From Gemmatimonadaceae bacterium (GTDB lineage Bacteria; Gemmatimonadota; Gemmatimonadetes; Gemmatimonadales; Gemmatimonadaceae), in NCBI GenBank assembly GCA_022843265.1, contig JALHNZ010000007.1, positions 1 through 64,000 of the forward strand: a stretch of DNA of 64,000 nt. Reading direction: 5' to 3'. Shown piece by piece: positions 13,792 through 37,906 of the stretch. Every line of letters begins with the position of its first letter. Within the stretch, counting starts at the first letter, position 1. Position numbers and translations under genes: made by a program. Below the pieces are notes generated by a model. That model searched no databases. It saw only the letters and a program-made list of their open reading frames with translations, and had not been told where the DNA came from.

Positions 13792-15140
13792 GCGCCGCAT
13801 TGCATCACGCCGCCGACACCTTCGCATCCCGTCTCACCGACGTGGATCGGTTCGCGACCTACGGCCGTGTTACACGTGTCGTTGGCCTGGTACTCGAGGC
13901 CACTGGTCTCGAAGCCGGACTTGGCGCGCTGTGTCGCGTAACCAGCCACTCGCGCGATCGTTCAGTGCTCGCAGAAGTGGTGGGCTTTCACGAAAGCGGT
14001 GTGTTGCTCATGCCGCTCGGCGAAATGGATGGACTGCATCAGGGCAGCATCGTGCAGCCTCTCGGCCGTTCCTTCGGCGTTGACGTGGGACCCGGGCTGC
14101 TCGGTCGCGTCCTCAATGGTCTCGGTCATCCAATCGATGGCAAAGGCAAGCTTGATGTCGTTGATCGCGTGCCACTCTCCGCAGAACCGCCAAATCCACT
14201 CGAGCGCCAGACAATTGATCGTCCGCTCGAAACTGGTGTTCGTGCGATTGATGGACTCTTGACCATTGGGCGCGGCCAGCGTGTTGGCATTTTTGCCGGC
14301 TCCGGCGTGGGCAAGAGCACCATGCTCGGCATGATCGCGCGTCACGCACGTGCGGATGTCAATGTGATTGCGCTGCTTGGCGAGCGCGGTCGTGAGGTGC
14401 GCGAGTTTCTCGACAACTCCCTTGGTGAAGAAGGACTGGCTCGCAGCGTTGTGATTGTGGCGACCGGTGACCAGGCAGCGCTCGTGCGCGCGCGTGGAGC
14501 GCTGGTGGCAACGGCGATCGCTGAGTATTTCCGCGATCAGGGCAAGCAGGTGCTGCTGATGGTTGATTCCGTCACGCGTGTCGCCATGGCGTGGCGCGAG
14601 ATCGGGCTTGCGACCGGCGAGCCACCAACCACGAAGGGATATCCGCCAAGCGTGTTTGCGAATCTTCCGCGCTTGCTCGAACGCGCGGGCAATGGCACGC
14701 AGGGCGGAATTACGGGCATCTACACGGTACTGGTAGATGGCGACGACTTCAATGAACCCGTTGCCGACGCCACACGCTCGATTCTCGACGGACATATCGT
14801 GCTCACGCGAAAGCTCGCGGCGCAGAATCACTATCCATCGATTGACATTCTCGAATCGAAGAGTCGCGTGCGTGATGCGATCATTTCGCCGGCGCAGCGT
14901 GAAGCCGCCGGCCAGGTGCAGCGGCTCGAGGCGGCATACCGGGAGAAGGAAGATCTGATCATGGTCGGCGCATATCAGCGTGGCAGCGATCCGTACGCCG
15001 ACGCGGCCATTGCACACCGCGACGCAACATTGGACTTCCTGCGTCAGGCCCCGGATGACGTCACGCTGTACGGTGACACGTACTCAGCCCTCACGCAGCT
15101 CGGTGGCACGATTGCCAACGCCACCCGGAGACCGTCATGA
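13788..15140 (+). CDS. fliI: Flagellar export ATPase FliI
   Basis: 450 residues; F1-beta-like ATPase with Walker A AGSGVGKST (K176), RGREVREFLDN, Walker B region QVLLMVDSVTRVAMAWRE and the signature PPSVFANLPRLLERAG. It energises export of rod, hook and filament subunits together with FliH and FliJ. It overlaps fliH by 4 bases (ATGA) and fliJ by 4 bases. Confidence 0.97.
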   Translation: MSAALHHAADTFASRLTDVDRFATYGRVTRVVGLVLEATGLEAGLGALCRVTSHSRDRSVLAEVVGFHESGVLLMPLGEMDGLHQGSIVQPLGRSFGVDVGPGLLGRVLNGLGHPIDGKGKLDVVDRVPLSAEPPNPLERQTIDRPLETGVRAIDGLLTIGRGQRVGIFAGSGVGKSTMLGMIARHARADVNVIALLGERGREVREFLDNSLGEEGLARSVVIVATGDQAALVRARGALVATAIAEYFRDQGKQVLLMVDSVTRVAMAWREIGLATGEPPTTKGYPPSVFANLPRLLERAGNGTQGGITGIYTVLVDGDDFNEPVADATRSILDGHIVLTRKLAAQNHYPSIDILESKSRVRDAIISPAQREAAGQVQRLEAAYREKEDLIMVGAYQRGSDPYADAAIAHRDATLDFLRQAPDDVTLYGDTYSALTQLGGTIANATRRPS

Positions 15141-15673
15141 GTTTTCGTTTTCGACTGCAGCGTGTACTTGAGCTTCGTGAAGAGTCTGAGCAAGCCCGAG
15201 CACGCACGCTCGCCGCGGCAACAGACCAGGCGAGTGAATGCAAGCGGCAGCAAGATGCGATGCAGTCGCTCCGCGAGTTGCAACGCGAAAGCCTTCAGGC
15301 GGCCGCGCGTGGTGTCATCACCGCCGGCGAACTGCATCATCTCACTTTCATTATTGGCCAGCTGGACGACCGGTTGGCGCGTGCGAACGATGATGTAGAG
15401 GAAGCCGAACGCATTGTGTCTGTGGCGCAGGCCGCGCTGCATCTCGCATCGCGGGATCGGCGCGTTATCGGTCGATTGAAGGAACGGCACGCCGAACGCT
15501 GGTACGACGCCGAGCAGCAGCGCGACCGCATGCATATGGATGAAATCGCGCTCTCCCGATTCACGCAGGCACGATCCATGCGTACAGGCACTGATATGAA
15601 TGCTGCCGATGCGTCGACCGAACCGCTCGTGATTGATCGCTCCCTTACCCCACCGGCTTCGCCGGTAATCTGA
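15137..15673 (+). CDS. fliJ: Flagellar export stalk protein FliJ
   Basis: 178 residues, almost wholly helical and coiled-coil: FRFRLQRVLELREESEQARA at the N-terminus and a second long helix at about 85-150. FliJ is the gamma-subunit-like stalk of the FliI ring and is always poorly conserved; the N-terminal FxLQxVLxLRE pattern and position between fliI and fliK support it. The C-terminal 25 residues are probably disordered. Confidence 0.85.
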   Translation: MSFRFRLQRVLELREESEQARARTLAAATDQASECKRQQDAMQSLRELQRESLQAAARGVITAGELHHLTFIIGQLDDRLARANDDVEEAERIVSVAQAALHLASRDRRVIGRLKERHAERWYDAEQQRDRMHMDEIALSRFTQARSMRTGTDMNAADASTEPLVIDRSLTPPASPVI

Positions 15674-15683
15674 GTCGCTCCCG

Positions 15684-16307
15684 ATGCTCAAGACCGCTAT
15701 TCTCCCCGCTATACTCGCGATCGTTGTCGGACTGGCCGGAAGCGCCGGCTACTCGGTCATGCAGTCGCGTACGTCGTATGCAGCGCATGTTGTGGTGCAG
15801 GATTCGATCGCGAAGGTCCGGATGGACAGTATCATGGCCGACAGCGCCGCTCTCGCCAAAGCCGCATTGCAGGCGCAGGCAGATAGCGCGCAGGCTGACT
15901 CTGCACTACACGCGCTCAGCACGCCGGCAGATTCGATTCGCGCACTTGTCTCAGAGCACAATCAGCAAGCATCCGCAGTGACACCCTCGGTGTCAGCGCC
16001 GCTTGCGCCGGCGGCGTCACTGAAGCCGGAACTGTCTCAGGCCGCGAAAGTCTCGCCGCCCGCGGCCATTCCCGCGCAGCCCGCGGCCGAAGTGCTGCCC
16101 GAACGCCGCCTTGCCAAGATCTTCAGCGCGATGTCATCGAAAGACGCAGCAAAGGTTCTTGAGCAGATGTCTGACAACGACATTCGGACCATTCTCTCGA
16201 TGATGGGCGACCGGCAGGCAGCCGCCGTGCTCACGGCGCTTCCGACATCGCGCGCCGCTTCGATTACCAAGGCAGGCACACCGTCCGCCGGGAGTATCAC
16301 ACCATGA
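15684..16307 (+). CDS. MotE/YlxF-like membrane protein with MgtE-N-like domain
   Basis: 207 residues: one membrane segment at about 5-25, a helical stretch with repeated ADS/AQADSA units (about 45-80), a Pro/Ala-rich linker, then an MgtE intracellular N-type helical domain (about 140-190: LAKIFSAMSSKDAAKVLEQM...ILSMMGDRQAAAVLTALP). This is the layout of MotE/YlxF, found between fliJ and fliK in many bacteria. MotE is thought to stabilise the flagellar stator or basal body. It overlaps fliK by 4 bases. Confidence 0.8.
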   Translation: MLKTAILPAILAIVVGLAGSAGYSVMQSRTSYAAHVVVQDSIAKVRMDSIMADSAALAKAALQAQADSAQADSALHALSTPADSIRALVSEHNQQASAVTPSVSAPLAPAASLKPELSQAAKVSPPAAIPAQPAAEVLPERRLAKIFSAMSSKDAAKVLEQMSDNDIRTILSMMGDRQAAAVLTALPTSRAASITKAGTPSAGSITP

Positions 16308-18391
16308 GTTTGTTGCCGTTCACGTCAAACGTTTCGGCAACTTCTGCCGCAAACTCGGTCAATCGTGCACGTCACGCGGAACGCCCACAATCCGCCGAAC
16401 GAACGCCTCGCACTGAAAGCGCCGACGAAACGTCGCGCACAGACAAACCCGTTCGCGAACACGCACCGCCAGACTTTTCGTTGTTGCTCGCGCTTCTCAA
16501 TGGTACAGCGCCCAAGCCCGCACCTGTCACCACGACTGACTTGCTCGCAACCGACGTGAGCGTGGAACAAGGCGCTGATGACGTGCAGCTCTACACAGTG
16601 GGCAGCGAAGGCGAAGGCGAAGCCGAGCAACCAAACCCTGAAGCCGAAACGCCGTCAACAATGGCTGACGCGGATCAACGCGCGCTGGCTCGTGCGTTGC
16701 AGTCTGACGCGATGCGCGCCGCGCGTGCGATTCTGGTCTCGAGCAACGTCGAGAATCGTTCGGCCGCCTCAATCGGTGAACGCGAGCCAGGACGCGGCGT
16801 GAATGGTTTGGCCAAGGGTCGCGCCGCCGAGTTGGCGGCGGCACTCGCGGGTGCGCAGAACGACAATGAGTTTGGAACCACTGGCATCGCCAACGCGGAT
16901 TTGCTGGCGCTCGCCGAGCGTGCTGCCGGTCGCGGCCGCGGCGAGTTGATGGCGCGCAATGATCAGCGCGCCGCCGATGTGCGTGCCGCAATCGACGCCT
17001 TGCTCGACGTGGCGGGCACGCCGCGTGGACGGGTCATCGCGGAAACAGCGCGTCCCGAGTTTGCCAATGCCGTGGCCAAGTCTGCGGAGAACGTGGCGAC
17101 ACCGGTGCGCGACGTTGCGGGTCTCGCGCCGGAGTTCCGCGCGCGTCTCGACCGAATCGTCGATCGGATGCGCGATGAGTTTGGACATGATGTCCAGGTC
17201 GTGGAAACCGTGCGCTCAGGTGAACGCCAGGAACATCTGTACGCGCAGGGACGCACCGCGCCGGGGCCGATTGTCACATGGACGACGAACAGTGCGCATG
17301 AATCGGGTGAAGCCGCCGACGTCATTATTGATGGCAAGTGGAATCATCCGGTGGCGTACGCGCGTTTGCACGCGATCGCGGCTGAAGAGGGAGTGAAAAC
17401 GCTCGGCATGCGCGACCCGGGCCATCTCGAACTGCGAGGCTCAGCCAATGGTCTGCACGGCGATGACTCGCTGCGGGACGGCGTGCGCGAACAAAGCACG
17501 CGCGTCGTGAATATGGGCGGCATCGCACAAGTCGCTTCGGTGGCGCGGGTTGCACACGTCGCGCAGGTGGCGCAGGTAGCGCGACCGGGCAACGGGGTGC
17601 GCGCGGGCACGCTGCGCACAGAAGCCGAAAACGTGCCGCTACTCGACAACGCACGCCCGTCCGATTCAGCGTCTGCCTTCGGTGCGCGCATTTCAGATCT
17701 GGCATCGCAAGGTCGCGCCCGACAGGGTGGCGCCGGTGCAACGTCGGATCGGGAGTCGCGCGGCAACAGCGGCGAACGCGCACGAGGACTTGAACGAGCG
17801 GTAAACGTCGCGGATGCGGGCAGTGCCATCGGCGCACTCAACGCCAGCGTCGAACGCGTACTCGATGGCGGTGCACCTCGCGTGCAGGCACCATCGGGTA
17901 GTACGGCCGCCGCTCGCGCCGAAGCCATCGCGGTGCTGCGCGAGGATGCGCCGGCACCGGCTATCTCGTCGCTGACCATGAGTATCGATACTCCAACGGG
18001 CGCCGAAGAAATTCGGGTGAACCTTCGCGGCAGCGCCGTTGGCGCGCAGATCAGCACGAGCAACGCGGCACTTGCCGACCGGTTGCGCATGCAAACCGCC
18101 GACCTGCAAGACGCGCTCGGCCGTCACGGTCTGGAAGCGGAGCCCCTGCGCGTGCAGCAGACCGCGCGCAGCAGTGAAGGCGATGCCATGCGTCAGGCCA
18201 TGGCCGACCGCACCGAAGTACTCAAGACAGCGGGCGCTTCGCACGGACAGCAGTTGGGTCAGCACAACGCGCACGACTCCGGCACGAAGGAGCGTCCGAC
18301 GGCGAAACAGCAGCCCGGCCGCGACGCGCGTGACGAGCAGGAGAGCAATCACCAGCAGGGCCGGCGCAATAACCGGCAGGAGAATCACTGA
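16304..18391 (+). CDS. fliK: FliK hook-length control protein with embedded M15 peptidase domain
   Basis: 695 residues. The N-terminal 270 residues are low-complexity, rich in Ala, Glu and Arg. Residues about 276-380 form a peptidase M15 domain of the L-Ala-D-Glu endopeptidase (CwlK / phage endolysin) type: RSGERQEHLYAQGRTAPG, then SAHESGEAADV (H332, D339) and MRDPGHLEL (D371, H374), the full zinc-ligand and catalytic set. A disordered linker with VA-rich repeats (about 405-428) leads to the FliK C-terminal domain (about 553-620: IRVNLRGSAVGAQIST...ADRLRMQTADLQDALGRHGLE) and a Gln/Asn/His-rich tail. FliK measures the hook and switches FlhB specificity. The peptidase insert is not part of known FliK architecture; see findings. 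Confidence 0.88.
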   Translation: MSLLPFTSNVSATSAANSVNRARHAERPQSAERTPRTESADETSRTDKPVREHAPPDFSLLLALLNGTAPKPAPVTTTDLLATDVSVEQGADDVQLYTVGSEGEGEAEQPNPEAETPSTMADADQRALARALQSDAMRAARAILVSSNVENRSAASIGEREPGRGVNGLAKGRAAELAAALAGAQNDNEFGTTGIANADLLALAERAAGRGRGELMARNDQRAADVRAAIDALLDVAGTPRGRVIAETARPEFANAVAKSAENVATPVRDVAGLAPEFRARLDRIVDRMRDEFGHDVQVVETVRSGERQEHLYAQGRTAPGPIVTWTTNSAHESGEAADVIIDGKWNHPVAYARLHAIAAEEGVKTLGMRDPGHLELRGSANGLHGDDSLRDGVREQSTRVVNMGGIAQVASVARVAHVAQVAQVARPGNGVRAGTLRTEAENVPLLDNARPSDSASAFGARISDLASQGRARQGGAGATSDRESRGNSGERARGLERAVNVADAGSAIGALNASVERVLDGGAPRVQAPSGSTAAARAEAIAVLREDAPAPAISSLTMSIDTPTGAEEIRVNLRGSAVGAQISTSNAALADRLRMQTADLQDALGRHGLEAEPLRVQQTARSSEGDAMRQAMADRTEVLKTAGASHGQQLGQHNAHDSGTKERPTAKQQPGRDARDEQESNHQQGRRNNRQENH

Positions 18392-19194
18392 TGTTTGACA
18401 TCACGCGCGCAGTCAGCACGCCCACCTCGCTTTCACCGCGTTTCAACAACGCGGTCGCGAATTCAGACGCCCCGGTGCAAGCACCGGCCGAGGCAACACC
18501 ACCACCTGCCGCCGGCACGGGCAAGAAGAACGACGCGCTCGGCCGCAATGAGTTTTTGCAGCTCCTCGTGGCACAGATGAAAAATCAGGATCCGCTCAAT
18601 CCGATGGACGGTCAGGAAATGGCCGCGCAGCTCGCGCAGTTCTCGCAGGTTGAGCAGCTCATTGACATCAACTCGAACATGAAAGTGGTGGCCGAGAGTC
18701 AGGTCGAACTTGGTAATGCGATTGAGGACTTGAGCCAGATCACCATTACCCAGGGTGATGCGATGGCCAAACTGCTTGAGCAGTCCATGGCCATCAACAC
18801 GGTTGGTCGCACGGGAGTTGTCGCCGGCGATCAGGTGTTTGTGGATCGCGATGGCAAAGGCTCCATCACGGTGGACACGGGTGAAAAGTCGGGCGTCGGT
18901 CGCCTCACGGTGATCGACTCGAAAGGCGAGGCGATCGGCCACTATGTGATCGGGGACGTCGCCAAAGGTATGCAGTCGTTTGAGCTCGAAGACTTCGGCA
19001 TCACGCCGCCGCTCCCGCCCGGGCAGTACAAGTATCGATTTGATATGGCGGATGCCCAGGCCAACTGGCTCCCCGCGAAGACGTACACCAGCGGACGCAT
19101 TACCGGGCTGCGCTACGAACAGGGCGTTCCCACGCTGCTGCTCGGCGACCGCATGAGCGTTCCGTTCTCCGCATTGCTTCAGATCCGCAGCTAA
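18391..19194 (+). CDS. flgD: Flagellar hook-cap / scaffolding protein FlgD
   Basis: 267 residues. After a disordered N-terminus comes the FlgD signature GRNEFLQLLVAQMKNQDPLNP and AAQLAQFSQVEQLI, followed by the FlgD Ig/tudor-like region (about 110-265). FlgD caps the growing hook and guides FlgE assembly. It shares one base with the fliK stop and lies 36 bases before flgE. Confidence 0.95.
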   Translation: MFDITRAVSTPTSLSPRFNNAVANSDAPVQAPAEATPPPAAGTGKKNDALGRNEFLQLLVAQMKNQDPLNPMDGQEMAAQLAQFSQVEQLIDINSNMKVVAESQVELGNAIEDLSQITITQGDAMAKLLEQSMAINTVGRTGVVAGDQVFVDRDGKGSITVDTGEKSGVGRLTVIDSKGEAIGHYVIGDVAKGMQSFELEDFGITPPLPPGQYKYRFDMADAQANWLPAKTYTSGRITGLRYEQGVPTLLLGDRMSVPFSALLQIRS

Positions 19195-20751: not shown

Positions 20752-20770
20752 TCTGAGCGCGTAGTGAGAC

Positions 20771-20805
20771 CAGCGGCCCGGCGACTGTGTGTCGTCGGGC
20801 CGCTG
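20771..20805 (+). terminator. Hairpin after flgE
   Basis: A 15-bp stem with one mismatch (CAGCGGCCCGGCGAC / GTCGTCGGGCCGCTG) and a 5-base loop lies 20 bases after the flgE stop. No T-tract follows, so it may act as a 3'-end stabiliser or a Rho-assisted end rather than a classic intrinsic terminator. It closes the flgB-flgE block. Confidence 0.6.
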
Positions 20806-20850
20806 CGCGCTGGGGAGTGGTGCGGTGCATTGTCGCGGTCTGAACTGCAT

Positions 20851-20992
20851 TCACCACGGAGGCACGGGGACACGGAGAACGGCACGCTGAGTCGAGGCAC
20901 GTCGCATCAGTTCAAAAAATTGATGATGTTCGCATCAGGAGACACCGTCCGTCGCAGCACGCTGTCCTCCGTGTCTCCGTGTCTCAGTGGTA
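20851..20992. repeat. Inverted-repeat element (MITE/REP-like)
   Basis: Two near-identical arms of about 28 bp in inverted orientation, 20851-20878 and 20964-20992. Both read ACCAC-x-GAG-x-CACGG-x-GACACGGAG outward to inward. They enclose about 85 bp with no reading frame. The ACGGAGACACGGAG-type sequence resembles a short dispersed repeat family seen in many environmental genomes (recollection, not checked here). A non-autonomous mobile element or REP-like palindrome is the likely explanation. Confidence 0.6.
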
Positions 20993-20999
20993 AAAGCAG

Positions 21000-21089
<90 letters not shown>

Positions 21090-21135
21090 CTGTCATTTTC
21101 GGATCCCGCAGCGCTTCATCGAGTATACGTTCGTG

Positions 21136-21915
21136 ATGCGCCTCACCTCGACCGCCCTCACGCTGGCCTGCGTCGCTTCCCTCGTGATGACGCTAGCGCC
21201 CCGACGCGCCGCAGCACAGCCGGTTCGCGGTTCGGTGGTGGACACGCTTGGTCGACCGCTGCCCGAATCGGACGTCATCGTGGTCAACACGCAAATCTCG
21301 GTGCGAACAGACGCTGAGGGCCGCTTTGCCCTCCCACTCGAACGGGCCGGCACGTACGAGATTCGCGTCCGAAAAATCGGCTACATCAGCTTCGGCGCGT
21401 CGTTCTACTTCAGGCCGGGCATGCCCGAAGAGCTCGTGCTCGTGATGACCCAGTTCTCGAACATGCTGGACACCGTGCGAGCAATCGCTGATGCGGATCG
21501 CTGCGCTACAACGACGCTTGAAGGCTTCGAATGCCGGCGCCAGGCGGGACTCGGCTATTTCCGAGACGCGGGTACCCTGCGCTCTCTGCGCTCCGATCAC
21601 TGGGCCGACATGTTCGAGGGTATGCCGGGGCTGCGTCGCAACATGGTGCTCGGGCCCATGGGTCGAGAGTGGCGCATCATGGCGCGACCCAGCCGCTGCC
21701 TGGTCGAACTCTGGAACGGGCAGCCGCCCATGCTCGCGCAGCCGGGAGACTTCCCACCCGATATGCGATGGCGACCCAACGACGTGGTCGCCATCGAATA
21801 CTACGACGAGTTTGTCAAAGTCCCCTCCCGCTACCGCAGCTACGTACTCGTTCAGGGCCAACAGCCCTGCGAGCTCGTGATTTACTGGCTCCGCGGGGCC
21901 ACCAAACGAGACTGA
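21136..21915 (+). CDS. Secreted CarboxypepD regulatory-like domain protein
   Basis: About 259 residues from the ATG at 21136, with a signal peptide ending near RRAAAQP. A CarboxypepD-regulatory / plug-like beta domain covers about 30-105 (VRGSVVDTLGRPLPESDVIVVN, TDAEGRFALPL, YEIRVRKIGYISF). The C-terminal half is unassigned and has paired cysteines. The frame is open far upstream through the hexamer array, giving an artefactual Cys-Arg repeat, but no signal peptide would result there. It is the only non-flagellar gene inside the flagellar region and probably arrived by insertion. Confidence 0.75.
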   Translation: MRLTSTALTLACVASLVMTLAPRRAAAQPVRGSVVDTLGRPLPESDVIVVNTQISVRTDAEGRFALPLERAGTYEIRVRKIGYISFGASFYFRPGMPEELVLVMTQFSNMLDTVRAIADADRCATTTLEGFECRRQAGLGYFRDAGTLRSLRSDHWADMFEGMPGLRRNMVLGPMGREWRIMARPSRCLVELWNGQPPMLAQPGDFPPDMRWRPNDVVAIEYYDEFVKVPSRYRSYVLVQGQQPCELVIYWLRGATKRD

Positions 21916-24259: not shown

Positions 24260-25858
24260 ATGCTTTCGGCTGGCATCGGAATTCTCGCAGCACTGGTCTT
24301 TGTACTTGGTCTGATCGCACTTACCGTGTGGGCCCTGAAGCGCGTGGGCGGTGGTGCACTGTCGGGACGTGCACGACTGCAGGTGGAGATTGTGCAGCGA
24401 CTCCCGCTCGGCCCCAAGTCAGGATTGGCCGTGGTGCGTGTGGGAGAGAAAGTGCTGGCGGTGTCGGTTGGGGATGGCGGAGTACATACACTCTTTGAAG
24501 TCGACGAAGCCGATCGGCAGCGCATCATCGCCGGTAGCGAGATGCCAACGCCAATGGTCTCGAGCGCCACAGCGCACGCAGCGTTCACCAAGTCGTTGAC
24601 GAATGCATTCACCGCGCCGCTGCAACGCGCGTTGGTCGCGCGGCGTGGTGCCAATGCGACTGCTGCAACAGTTGCACCGTCGTTTGATCGTGCGCTGTCG
24701 CAGGCTACGCAGCACGGGGTGTTCGCACCGCAAGCGGCGGTCAGCGCGCCCGAACCAACGACGCCATCGCCAGTCGTTGTCTCGGCGACGCCGCGCGCGC
24801 CGCACCGTGATCTGCACAGCGTACTGTCCATGACACTCGCACCGTCTACGCGGCTGCTCTCAATCGCTGCGTTCGCGGTGCTCTCGCAGTTCACGTCGCC
24901 GTTATCCTCTGGCGCGCAGGCGCAGCCAGCCGCGGGTGCGGCGCCAGCGCCAGCCGTGCTAGCGCCAACGGTGTCAGCACCCACGGTGCAACCACCAGTC
25001 GTTCGCCCGACGCCGAACACGCCGTCAGCACCCACCGTGCAGCCACCAGTCGTTCGCCCGACGCCGAACACGCCGCCGGCCGCTACGGTTGCTCCGGTCG
25101 GCAACACGCGCCCAGCTGACGCGACCGTCGCCGAGCCCGATCCGACCCAGCCGGCCGCCGTAGCTGACGCCGTTTCCGGCCTGGTGCCCCAGCTCGACCT
25201 TCGTGTCGGAAGCGGCCCAGATGGCGGACTGCGCTTGAACGGTACCGTTGGTGTCGTGTTAATGATGGGTCTCATGACGCTCGTTCCAACGTTGCTGCTC
25301 ATGATGACCGGGTTCACCCGCATTCTGATCGTACTGCATTTCCTGAAGCAGGCGATGGGCACACAGAGCGCGCCACCCGCCCACCTGGTCGCGGCGCTGG
25401 CGCTTTTGCTCACCGGGTTTGTCATGGCGCCCACGATTTCAGAGGCCAACCGCACCGCGATCAGCCCGTGGCTCGAAGGGCGTATGGAGCAGACGGAGAT
25501 GCTCAAGACAGGCGTGGTCCCGTTTCGCGAGTTCATGCTGCGGCAAACCAACGAAAAGGACCTGCGCACCTTCGTAGAGATGAGCCGCATCGAGCAGCCG
25601 GAAACGCCGGATGATGTGCCGCTTCACGTGCTCATGTCCGCGTTCGTGGCGAGCGAGCTGCGCACGGCATTCCAGATCGGATTCGCGATCTATCTGCCGT
25701 TCATCATTATCGACGCGGTCGTCGCGTCTGTTCTGATGGCGATGGGCATGTTCATGCTGCCTCCGGCCATGATCTCCCTACCGTTCAAACTCTTGTTGTT
25801 CGTGCTGGTGGACGGCTGGAGCCTCACCATGCAGAGCCTGATTCAGAGCTTCAAATAG
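24260..25858 (+). CDS. fliP: FliO-FliP fusion, flagellar export gate assembly and pore protein
   Basis: 532 residues in one frame. Residues 1-95 are FliO: a membrane segment (5-27) then VEIVQRLPLGPKSGLAVVRVGEKVLAVSV. A linker (100-185) leads to a second hydrophobic signal-like segment (191-220, MTLAPSTRLLSIAAFAVLSQ...AQAQ) and a Pro-rich linker with two 17-residue repeats (239-272). Residues about 310-532 are FliP: VLMMGLMTLVPTLLLMMTGFTRILIVL, HVLMSAFVASELRTAFQIGF and the C-terminal helices. FliP with FliQ and FliR makes the export pore; FliO helps FliP assemble. An internal ATG at 24830 could make separate FliP, but no ribosome site precedes it. Confidence 0.9.
   Translation: MLSAGIGILAALVFVLGLIALTVWALKRVGGGALSGRARLQVEIVQRLPLGPKSGLAVVRVGEKVLAVSVGDGGVHTLFEVDEADRQRIIAGSEMPTPMVSSATAHAAFTKSLTNAFTAPLQRALVARRGANATAATVAPSFDRALSQATQHGVFAPQAAVSAPEPTTPSPVVVSATPRAPHRDLHSVLSMTLAPSTRLLSIAAFAVLSQFTSPLSSGAQAQPAAGAAPAPAVLAPTVSAPTVQPPVVRPTPNTPSAPTVQPPVVRPTPNTPPAATVAPVGNTRPADATVAEPDPTQPAAVADAVSGLVPQLDLRVGSGPDGGLRLNGTVGVVLMMGLMTLVPTLLLMMTGFTRILIVLHFLKQAMGTQSAPPAHLVAALALLLTGFVMAPTISEANRTAISPWLEGRMEQTEMLKTGVVPFREFMLRQTNEKDLRTFVEMSRIEQPETPDDVPLHVLMSAFVASELRTAFQIGFAIYLPFIIIDAVVASVLMAMGMFMLPPAMISLPFKLLLFVLVDGWSLTMQSLIQSFK
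24974..25075 (+). repeat. 51-bp tandem duplication in the FliO-FliP linker
   Basis: Two nearly identical 51-base copies (24974-25024 and 25025-25075) encode the 17-residue unit APTVQPPVVRPTPNTPS twice. The repeat is in frame and lies after the signal-like segment, so it lengthens a flexible Pro-rich region ahead of the mature FliP part. Confidence 0.9.
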
Positions 25859-36492: not shown

Positions 36493-37535
36493 TCCGTCTG
36501 CTTCTTGTGTCAGCCGCGCTCACGCTCGCGTTGCCATCGGCGGTTGCCGCACAGGCTGAAGCACGCATTCGCGATCTCACGACCGCTGAAGGTGCGATGC
36601 CGGTCCGGCTGATGGGTTACGGGCTCGTCGTTGGCCTTGATGGTACCGGTGATCGCGCGATCGGCGGTCAGACCGCCGGACAGACCGTGCAGTCCGTCGT
36701 GAACGTGCTGCGCCGTTTTGATATCGAAGTGCCGCCGAATCTGCTGCGAATGCGCAATGTGGCCGCGGTGCTGGTAACGGCCGAAATGTCGCCGTACCTG
36801 CGCGCGGGTGGTCGCTTTGAGATCCAGGTGGCCAGCATGGGCGACGCGCGCTCACTGCGTGGTGGCGTGTTGTACATGACACCACTCGTTGCTGAACCGG
36901 GTGGACCGGCCATGGCAACAGCGCAAGGACCGCTGCTCGTCAGCGAAGGTGGTTCTGCAACACGCTACGCACCAACCATTGAAACATCGGCGCGCATCCC
37001 GAGCGGCGGCATTCTCGAAGCCGATCTACCGCGCCCAACACTCGCCGCTTCAAGTGCTCGTTTGTTTTTGCGCGAACCGGATCTTGGTACGGCCACTCGC
37101 ATTGTGACCGCGATCAACGGTCAGCTGCAAGGTGATGTGGCGGCGATTGAAGACGAAGGGGCGATCAGACTCACGCTGCCCGATGGTGCGGAACGTGCCA
37201 CATCGCTGGCCAGGATTCTTGAACTCGCGGTGCGTCCTGATCTCAAGCCGCGTCTCGTGATTGATGGGAAAGACGGTACGGTGGTCGTTGGCGGTGACAT
37301 CACTGTTGGTCCGGCCACAGTCAGTCACGGTGGTGTGACGCTCTCAATTGGTGATGCACCAGCGGCTGATGAAGCCGGAGCTGCCGCCGGCAGTGTCCGC
37401 CTGGCAATCGGAACACCGGTGCAGAAGGTGGCGAGTGCGCTCCATGCCGTACAGACACCGCCACAGGAAATCGCCGCGATCTTTGCCGCGCTGCGTGATG
37501 TTGGCGCAATCACCGCCGAGATCATCGTTCGATGA
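36489..37535 (+). CDS. flgI: Flagellar P-ring protein FlgI
   Basis: 348 residues with a signal peptide cleaved near AVAAQA. Typical FlgI motifs: ARIRDLTTAEGAMPVRLMGYGLVVGLDGTGD, VNVLRRFDIEVPPNLLRMRNVAAVLVTAEM, and the C-terminal QKVASALHAVQTPPQEIAAIFAALRDVGAITAEIIVR. FlgI builds the periplasmic ring in the peptidoglycan layer. Overlaps flgH and flgJ by 4 bases each. Confidence 0.96.
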   Translation: MIRLLLVSAALTLALPSAVAAQAEARIRDLTTAEGAMPVRLMGYGLVVGLDGTGDRAIGGQTAGQTVQSVVNVLRRFDIEVPPNLLRMRNVAAVLVTAEMSPYLRAGGRFEIQVASMGDARSLRGGVLYMTPLVAEPGGPAMATAQGPLLVSEGGSATRYAPTIETSARIPSGGILEADLPRPTLAASSARLFLREPDLGTATRIVTAINGQLQGDVAAIEDEGAIRLTLPDGAERATSLARILELAVRPDLKPRLVIDGKDGTVVVGGDITVGPATVSHGGVTLSIGDAPAADEAGAAAGSVRLAIGTPVQKVASALHAVQTPPQEIAAIFAALRDVGAITAEIIVR

Positions 37536-37906
37536 TCAATGGCGTCGGAGTCTCACCGATTGCACCGAAGACACCCGCCACGCCTGGCGCAGGTGCACAA
37601 CCGCCACGTGATGCGCGCTTGCAACAGGCCGTGACGCAGCTGGAAGGTGTGTTTGTGCAACAACTGTACAAGGCCATGCGCGAATCCGTTCCGCAGCAGG
37701 AAGGAATCGTTTCAGGTGGGGCCGGAGAAGACATGTTTACCGCGATGATGGATCAGCACCTTGCTGCCGAGACTCCCAAGCATTGGGAGCGCGGTTTATC
37801 GCAGGCGCTGTACCGGCAGCTCAGCCAGCACCTCGTTACGCCGTCCACTAGCGAAACAGCAACCGCTGCGTCGCATCCCGATACCGTAAGCCAGCCAGAC
37901 CTCTGA
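37532..37906 (+). CDS. flgJ: FlgJ, short rod-cap form without hydrolase domain
   Basis: 124 residues. Only the N-terminal rod-binding domain is present (LQQAVTQLEGVFVQQLYKAMRESVPQQEGIVSGGAGEDMFTAMMDQHLA). The C-terminal glucosaminidase or transglycosylase domain of enteric FlgJ is absent, so another peptidoglycan hydrolase must open the wall for the rod. Short FlgJ proteins are common outside the gamma- and betaproteobacteria. Confidence 0.9.
   Translation: MINGVGVSPIAPKTPATPGAGAQPPRDARLQQAVTQLEGVFVQQLYKAMRESVPQQEGIVSGGAGEDMFTAMMDQHLAAETPKHWERGLSQALYRQLSQHLVTPSTSETATAASHPDTVSQPDL

Follow-up and report, generated by a model that had tools for sequence, protein, structure and literature searches.

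In many phyla it is not understood how flagella with a single-domain FlgJ pass through the cell wall, and the question arises in a stretch of 64,000 nucleotides from a Gemmatimonadaceae contig (JALHNZ010000007.1, positions 1 to 64,000; hereafter the window). The window encodes a FlgJ with the rod-binding domain alone, and its gene for the hook-length control protein FliK carries an embedded domain of the M15 peptidase type. The presence of this domain in FliK is practically certain. We consider it likely that this FliK, besides measuring the hook, acts after secretion as a zinc-dependent endopeptidase on peptidoglycan and so replaces the hydrolase of FlgJ. The features on which the analysis is based are collected in Table 1.

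Table 1. Features of the window discussed in the text (aa, amino acids; alignments A1 and A2 are defined in the text)
Feature	Position	Strand	Basis
fliJ, upstream of fliK in the same gene string	15137..15673	+	PF02050, E 3.2e-12
MotE-like gene with MgtE_N domain; 4-base overlap with the fliK start	15684..16307	+	PF03448, E 4.3e-8
fliK (695 aa), encoding the hook-length control protein, M15 domain embedded	16304..18391	+	Single ORF; Flg_hook; gene order
M15/LAS peptidoglycan endopeptidase domain (predicted), FliK aa 263-384	17090..17455	+	PHROG and PDB profile matches, model, VIA Z, A1
H332 codon, predicted zinc ligand 1 (SxHxxGxAxD)	17297..17299	+	Invariant in A1 and in 57 distinct domains
D339 codon, predicted zinc ligand 2	17318..17320	+	Invariant in A1 and in 57 domains
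D371 codon, predicted catalytic acid/base (DPGHLE)	17414..17416	+	Invariant in A1; also with phage endolysins (A2)
H374 codon, predicted zinc ligand 3	17423..17425	+	Invariant in A1 and A2
FliK C-terminal (Flg_hook) domain, FlhB-binding switch domain by homology	17954..18169	+	aa 551-621; PF02120, 31.8 bits
flgD, hook cap; start coincides with the fliK end	18391..19194	+	PF03963, E 1.4e-23
flgJ, 124 aa, rod-binding domain alone, no hydrolase	37532..37906	+	PF10135, E 4.6e-13, nothing else; 19 aa tail

The fliK reading frame is unbroken and fills the interval between the MotE-like ORF (end at 16307) and flgD (start at 18391); the order FliJ, MotE-like protein, FliK, FlgD is also found in other families of the class. 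At residues 551-621 the Flg_hook model (PF02120) scored just below its cut-off in the protein scan (E 1.7e-6, 28.1 bits) and above it in the genome search (31.8 bits, cut-off 29.8). We identify the protein as FliK by this C-terminal domain and by the place of its gene in the flagellar string near fliJ and flgD, and ascribe hook-length control and type III export to it by homology. As stated in the earlier note, the C-terminal domain of FliK follows the M15 domain. A model of the full-length protein, built from four sequences, was too poor for use (pLDDT 41).

Three further observations were made in this part of the window. Directly after the M15 domain, at 17525-17584 (FliK residues 408-427), lies a VAxVAxVAxVA triplet repeat that is conserved in the genus. 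The flagellar string also has a gene for a CarboxypepD_reg-like protein of 383 aa (20764-21915), flanked by those for FlgE and FliL, and one ORF of 532 aa at 24260-25858 contains both FliO and FliP domains, an apparent FliO-FliP fusion.

The M15 domain is easily missed. In the scan of the window FliK with Pfam and NCBIfam models no M15 model exceeded its cut-off, VanY appearing at E 0.14 only, so that reliance on these collections alone would leave the domain unnoticed. Of the two kinds of model proposed for an HMM search in the earlier note, Flg_hook matched the window protein by itself and no Pfam M15 model did. Other searches were more informative. Residues 272-342 were matched by PHROG endolysin families (E 4.9e-14), and phmmer against the PDB with the single window sequence gave weak matches to the endolysins LysB4 and Ply500. 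Pfam models M15_3, VanY and M15_2 match many of the 27 FliK M15 domain relatives that we aligned (alignment A1), with a best E of 4.7e-6. In the PDB, the A1 profile matched the endolysins Ply500 and LysB4 at 1e-11 and, more weakly, known relatives in the LAS group: further L-Ala-D-Glu peptidases, carboxypeptidases of the VanY type and hedgehog proteins.

With an alignment of the window domain, its genus relatives and viral homologues (A2), AlphaFold predicted a LAS fold for the domain (pLDDT 88.9). The best solved match of this model was Ply500 (2vo9; VIA Z 12.7, rmsd 2.4, 111 residues), followed by LysB4 (Z 12.4), LysECD7 (Z 11.6) and ChiX (Z 11.2). H332, D339, D371 and H374 align with the H...D...(D/E)xxH site of Ply500-like enzymes; which residues of Ply500 are its zinc ligands we take as established. 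Structure prediction agreed with the earlier note as to the fold. By predicted fold, motifs and profile matches we assign residues 263-384 of FliK to the LAS/M15 metallopeptidases. The domain had been placed at residues 276-380; these coordinates are correct (the stretch from residue 276 to residue 380 is encoded by 17129-17443) and the domain is real, but its extent is a little wider than claimed. The four residues named for the site were found as described, and so were R304, R308, Q309 and E376.

When FliK proteins of the genus are compared, identity is highest in the M15 region (78%), against 70% in Flg_hook and 34-36% in the flanking linkers. Eight residues are invariant among the 27 members of A1 (R42, R46, Q47, H70, D77, D109, H112 and E114 in its numbering). 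In a wider set of 57 distinct domains, the motifs SxHxxGxAxD and DxGH are kept in all and the complete DxGHxE in 56, the remaining one having Gln for Glu. None of the 57 has the W-G-x-x-W flap that precedes the catalytic Asp in phage endolysins. For this reason we do not file the domain as M15C; the exact bond is uncertain, and substrate or rate may differ. The proposed CwlK/endolysin (L-Ala-D-Glu) type accordingly holds for the fold and the H-D-H site, but not for the flap. Taken together, the alignments point to a catalytic centre under strong selection and to a substrate side unlike that of the phage enzymes.

The absence of a flap typical of active endolysins could also mean that the domain is not catalytic, serving instead as a peptidoglycan binder or as a folded knot that sets the pauses of FliK in the channel and tunes the ruler; a slow transit of FliK is indeed required for switching (PMC13344023). 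We regard such a role as quite improbable. A spacer or binder need not keep the predicted zinc ligands and the catalytic Asp, yet these are invariant in 57 sequences from several families, and the sole copy that has lost its motifs, in genome G026, is ruined throughout rather than preserved as a binder.

The distribution of the fusion was studied in 59 genomes of the family of the window (f1) and in a sample of 395 Gemmatimonadota genomes. FlgJ was found in 29 of the 59, and 27 of the 29 have an intact M15 domain in FliK; the remainder are G026, with its ruined M15, and G027, a 74% complete assembly in which no FliK was found. Across the phylum, strong M15 matches (E up to 2e-40) were obtained in 85 genomes and FlgJ in 102, the two occurring together in 83 (Fisher p 8e-64, 395 genomes). 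Both genomes with M15 only are multi-contig drafts, as are the FlgJ-only genomes G208 and G360; FliK was not detected in either of the latter, and they are therefore not counterexamples. The order FliJ, FliK(M15), FlgD recurs in four further families of the class (f4, f5, f6 and f7), and the fusion is present in most flagellated members of the class. The association itself mostly reflects the fact that M15 accompanies flagella, and the replacement idea is tested only by the lineages f11 and f2 and by G026.

Since the window comes from a draft of 211 contigs, an erroneous assembly join of a fliK and an endolysin gene had to be considered. This explanation, to which we give next to no likelihood, is refuted by the occurrence of the fusion in 85 genomes, including the single-contig assemblies G022, G048, G107 and G111, with the same neighbours wherever these were read. 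In genome G380, two FliK-M15 copies were seen on contigs C125 and C189 (L153 and L154), each beside FliI, FliJ and FlgD; they represent either two flagellar systems or a mixed bin.

The tail that follows the rod-binding region is at most 52 aa in all f1 FlgJ proteins measured, which leaves no hydrolase domain; the claim that FlgJ lacks this domain thus proved right for the window and for all measured FlgJ proteins of the family. GH73 is the FlgJ enzyme of Enterobacteria. A GH73 search of the window's genome gave none, this domain being found in only 4 of 390 genomes of the phylum, and scans of flagellar genes in the window revealed no other hydrolase in those covered.

The only lineage outside the class of the window that has FlgJ in the sample, f11, belongs to another class-level lineage and shows the reverse arrangement. 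Its FlgJ tails are 175-182 aa long (five loci), and in the two that were scanned with Pfam the tail is an SLT domain (E 1e-30); SLT occupies the flgJ position in genomes G059, G061 and G064. The f11 FliK proteins have Flg_hook domains, and an M15 search of them gave no match. Judged by domain homology, the hydrolase is carried on the rod cap (FlgJ) in one class and on the ruler (FliK) in the other. No other observation speaks as strongly as this exchange for a takeover of wall opening by FliK-M15. It also bears on the idea that FliK-M15 is mainly an effector exported through the hook channel against neighbouring cells. FliK does reach the outside of the cell once the hook is built, and phage endolysins are among the nearest non-FliK relatives of the domain, but little FliK is secreted, and its secretion ends with the switch; the genes adjoining fliK are flagellar with no immunity gene seen among them, and the exchange with a FlgJ-borne SLT favours wall passage. 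We therefore consider an effector function highly improbable.

The expected co-occurrence of the fusion with a short FlgJ is seen in f1 and the other families of the class as against f11, whereas family f2 and G026 have neither enzyme. Family f2 belongs to the same order as the window's genome. It has FlgJ in ten genomes, none of which gave a strong M15 match, and its FlgJ tails are short in the four genomes measured. In four f2 genomes, the frame that lies between fliJ and flgD and encodes FliK shows no M15; the one f2 FliK that was scanned has Flg_hook alone, and the f2 flagellar string examined yielded no replacement hydrolase. In G026 (L152:4833-6554) the His/Asp/His motifs of M15 are lost although all of the flagellar string is present, whereas in G053, a sister genome of the same genus, the M15 domain is intact. 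It follows from f2 and G026 that M15 is not indispensable for every flagellum with a short FlgJ.

These exceptions speak for a rival reading, in which the wall is opened by another protein, a lytic transglycosylase exported by Sec, as SltF or LTase-Bb do it alongside a single-domain FlgJ. An active FliK-M15 would then only help, by trimming around the P-ring or where the hook passes, or would work extracellularly once the hook has emerged. There is a precedent in Borrelia, where a single-domain FlgJ is combined with an SLT enzyme (PMC8517470), and the window's genome has two SLT transglycosylase genes on another contig, whose products could open the wall. In addition, four of six f2 genomes contain an extra SLT protein of about 760-810 aa (G086:C2:318806, G076:C29:21931, G306:C105:1458 and G150:C137:62521) that is absent from four f1 genomes; this large protein is a possible substitute wall opener in f2. 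Nevertheless, at least two SLT genes are present in all 15 genomes examined, f2 and f11 among them, so that the presence of SLT does not track M15. The genes scanned in the flagellar string of the window included no SLT, and M15 is found in 83 of the 102 genomes with FlgJ, as the most conserved part of FliK. A transglycosylase as the main wall opener thus seems to us unlikely, though it deserves serious attention.

As to the descent of the domain, all FliK M15 domains are separated from the viral ones by a well-supported branch (98/97). With poor support, a group of secreted-looking M15 proteins of family f6, the stand-alone L156 and the ruined L152 fall among the FliK domains, and a single origin of FliK-M15 is for this reason neither shown nor excluded. 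The f6 proteins L149, L150 and L151 are stand-alone M15 proteins related to the FliK domain; they have the DPGH motif, no Trp flap and, judged by eye, a hydrophobic, signal-peptide-like stretch at the N-terminus. They would fit a periplasmic enzyme as a possible source of the FliK domain. A single scan of genome contigs for M15 returned only relatives of Gemmatimonas, and plasmids gave three weak matches.

The suggestion that FliK opens the wall is thus supported by the real M15 domain, the FlgJ without hydrolase, the class-wide fusion and the reverse arrangement in f11, but f2 and G026 do without it. On balance, wall opening by FliK-M15 is likely. Published work on Salmonella shows that FliK reaches the periplasm during rod assembly and that an enzyme fused to it is active there (FliK-Bla was likewise used in PMC11247099); export therefore does not prevent a FliK-borne enzyme from folding again, and the first FliK molecules do arrive in the periplasm. 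Together with the distribution of M15, FliK export in Salmonella leads us to infer that the wall is cut at the rod tip up to the point at which the rod crosses the outer membrane. FliK would be exported in unfolded form by way of the flagellar type III gate and, if this happens while the rod is still periplasmic, would emerge at the rod tip. There the M15 domain would fold, then bind zinc and cleave peptidoglycan stem peptides beside the rod, in place of the missing hydrolase of FlgJ. After the rod has passed the outer membrane, later FliK molecules would leave the cell, and cutting would end without a separate off switch; at sufficient hook length, the C-terminal domain of FliK would flip FlhB. 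In this scheme we infer that FliK-M15 is active, which bond it cuts and that the rod needs it for passage; the coupling of wall breaching with hook length suggested in the earlier note is a sound hypothesis.

The enzyme missing from the rod cap thus appears to have moved to the ruler throughout a bacterial class. If this is true, secretion of FliK into the periplasm during rod growth is useful rather than leakage, and the enzyme has a simple shut-off, since export leaves the periplasm; FliK-M15 would also be a cellular counterpart of tape-measure hydrolases. A full-text search of open papers, covering few subscription papers, gave no description of a FliK with M15 or another hydrolase, and an earlier mention is possible. 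While FliK and M15 enzymes are each known, we regard the fusion of a flagellar ruler to a peptidoglycan hydrolase as new. That the ruler is itself the wall opener, a type III substrate that measures the rod and hook, cuts peptidoglycan, limits its own action and is exchanged with FlgJ-SLT within the phylum, we hold to be rather probable.

With canonical FliK, e.g., that of Salmonella, the window protein shares the Flg_hook C-terminus, the site between FliJ and FlgD and a long variable linker; it differs by the folded M15 domain in the ruler part. Dual-domain FlgJ (rod cap with GH73 or, in f11, with SLT) is likewise a type III substrate that brings a wall hydrolase to the rod tip, but here the enzyme is on the ruler instead of the cap, is by homology a peptidase and not a glycosidase, and FlgJ is single-domain. 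In systems with a single-domain FlgJ and SltF or LTase-Bb, the wall cutter is also separate from FlgJ; these, however, are transglycosylases made as proteins apart, each having an export signal of its own, whereas the candidate cutter described here is a type III substrate. The M15C L-Ala-D-Glu endopeptidases (Ply500, LysB4, CwlK, ChiX and the T5 endolysin) share with FliK-M15 the predicted fold, the H-D-H zinc site and the position of the catalytic Asp, while FliK-M15 has no W-G-x-x-W flap, has a shorter last loop, is located inside FliK and is set apart from the viral enzymes by a supported branch. Finally, the phage tape-measure protein TM4 gp17 carries peptidoglycan hydrolase motifs (PMC1796659). 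Phage tape-measure proteins act in a tail tube and use another enzyme family, and we claim no homology; the idea in common is that of a length-measuring, tube-travelling protein with a wall hydrolase.
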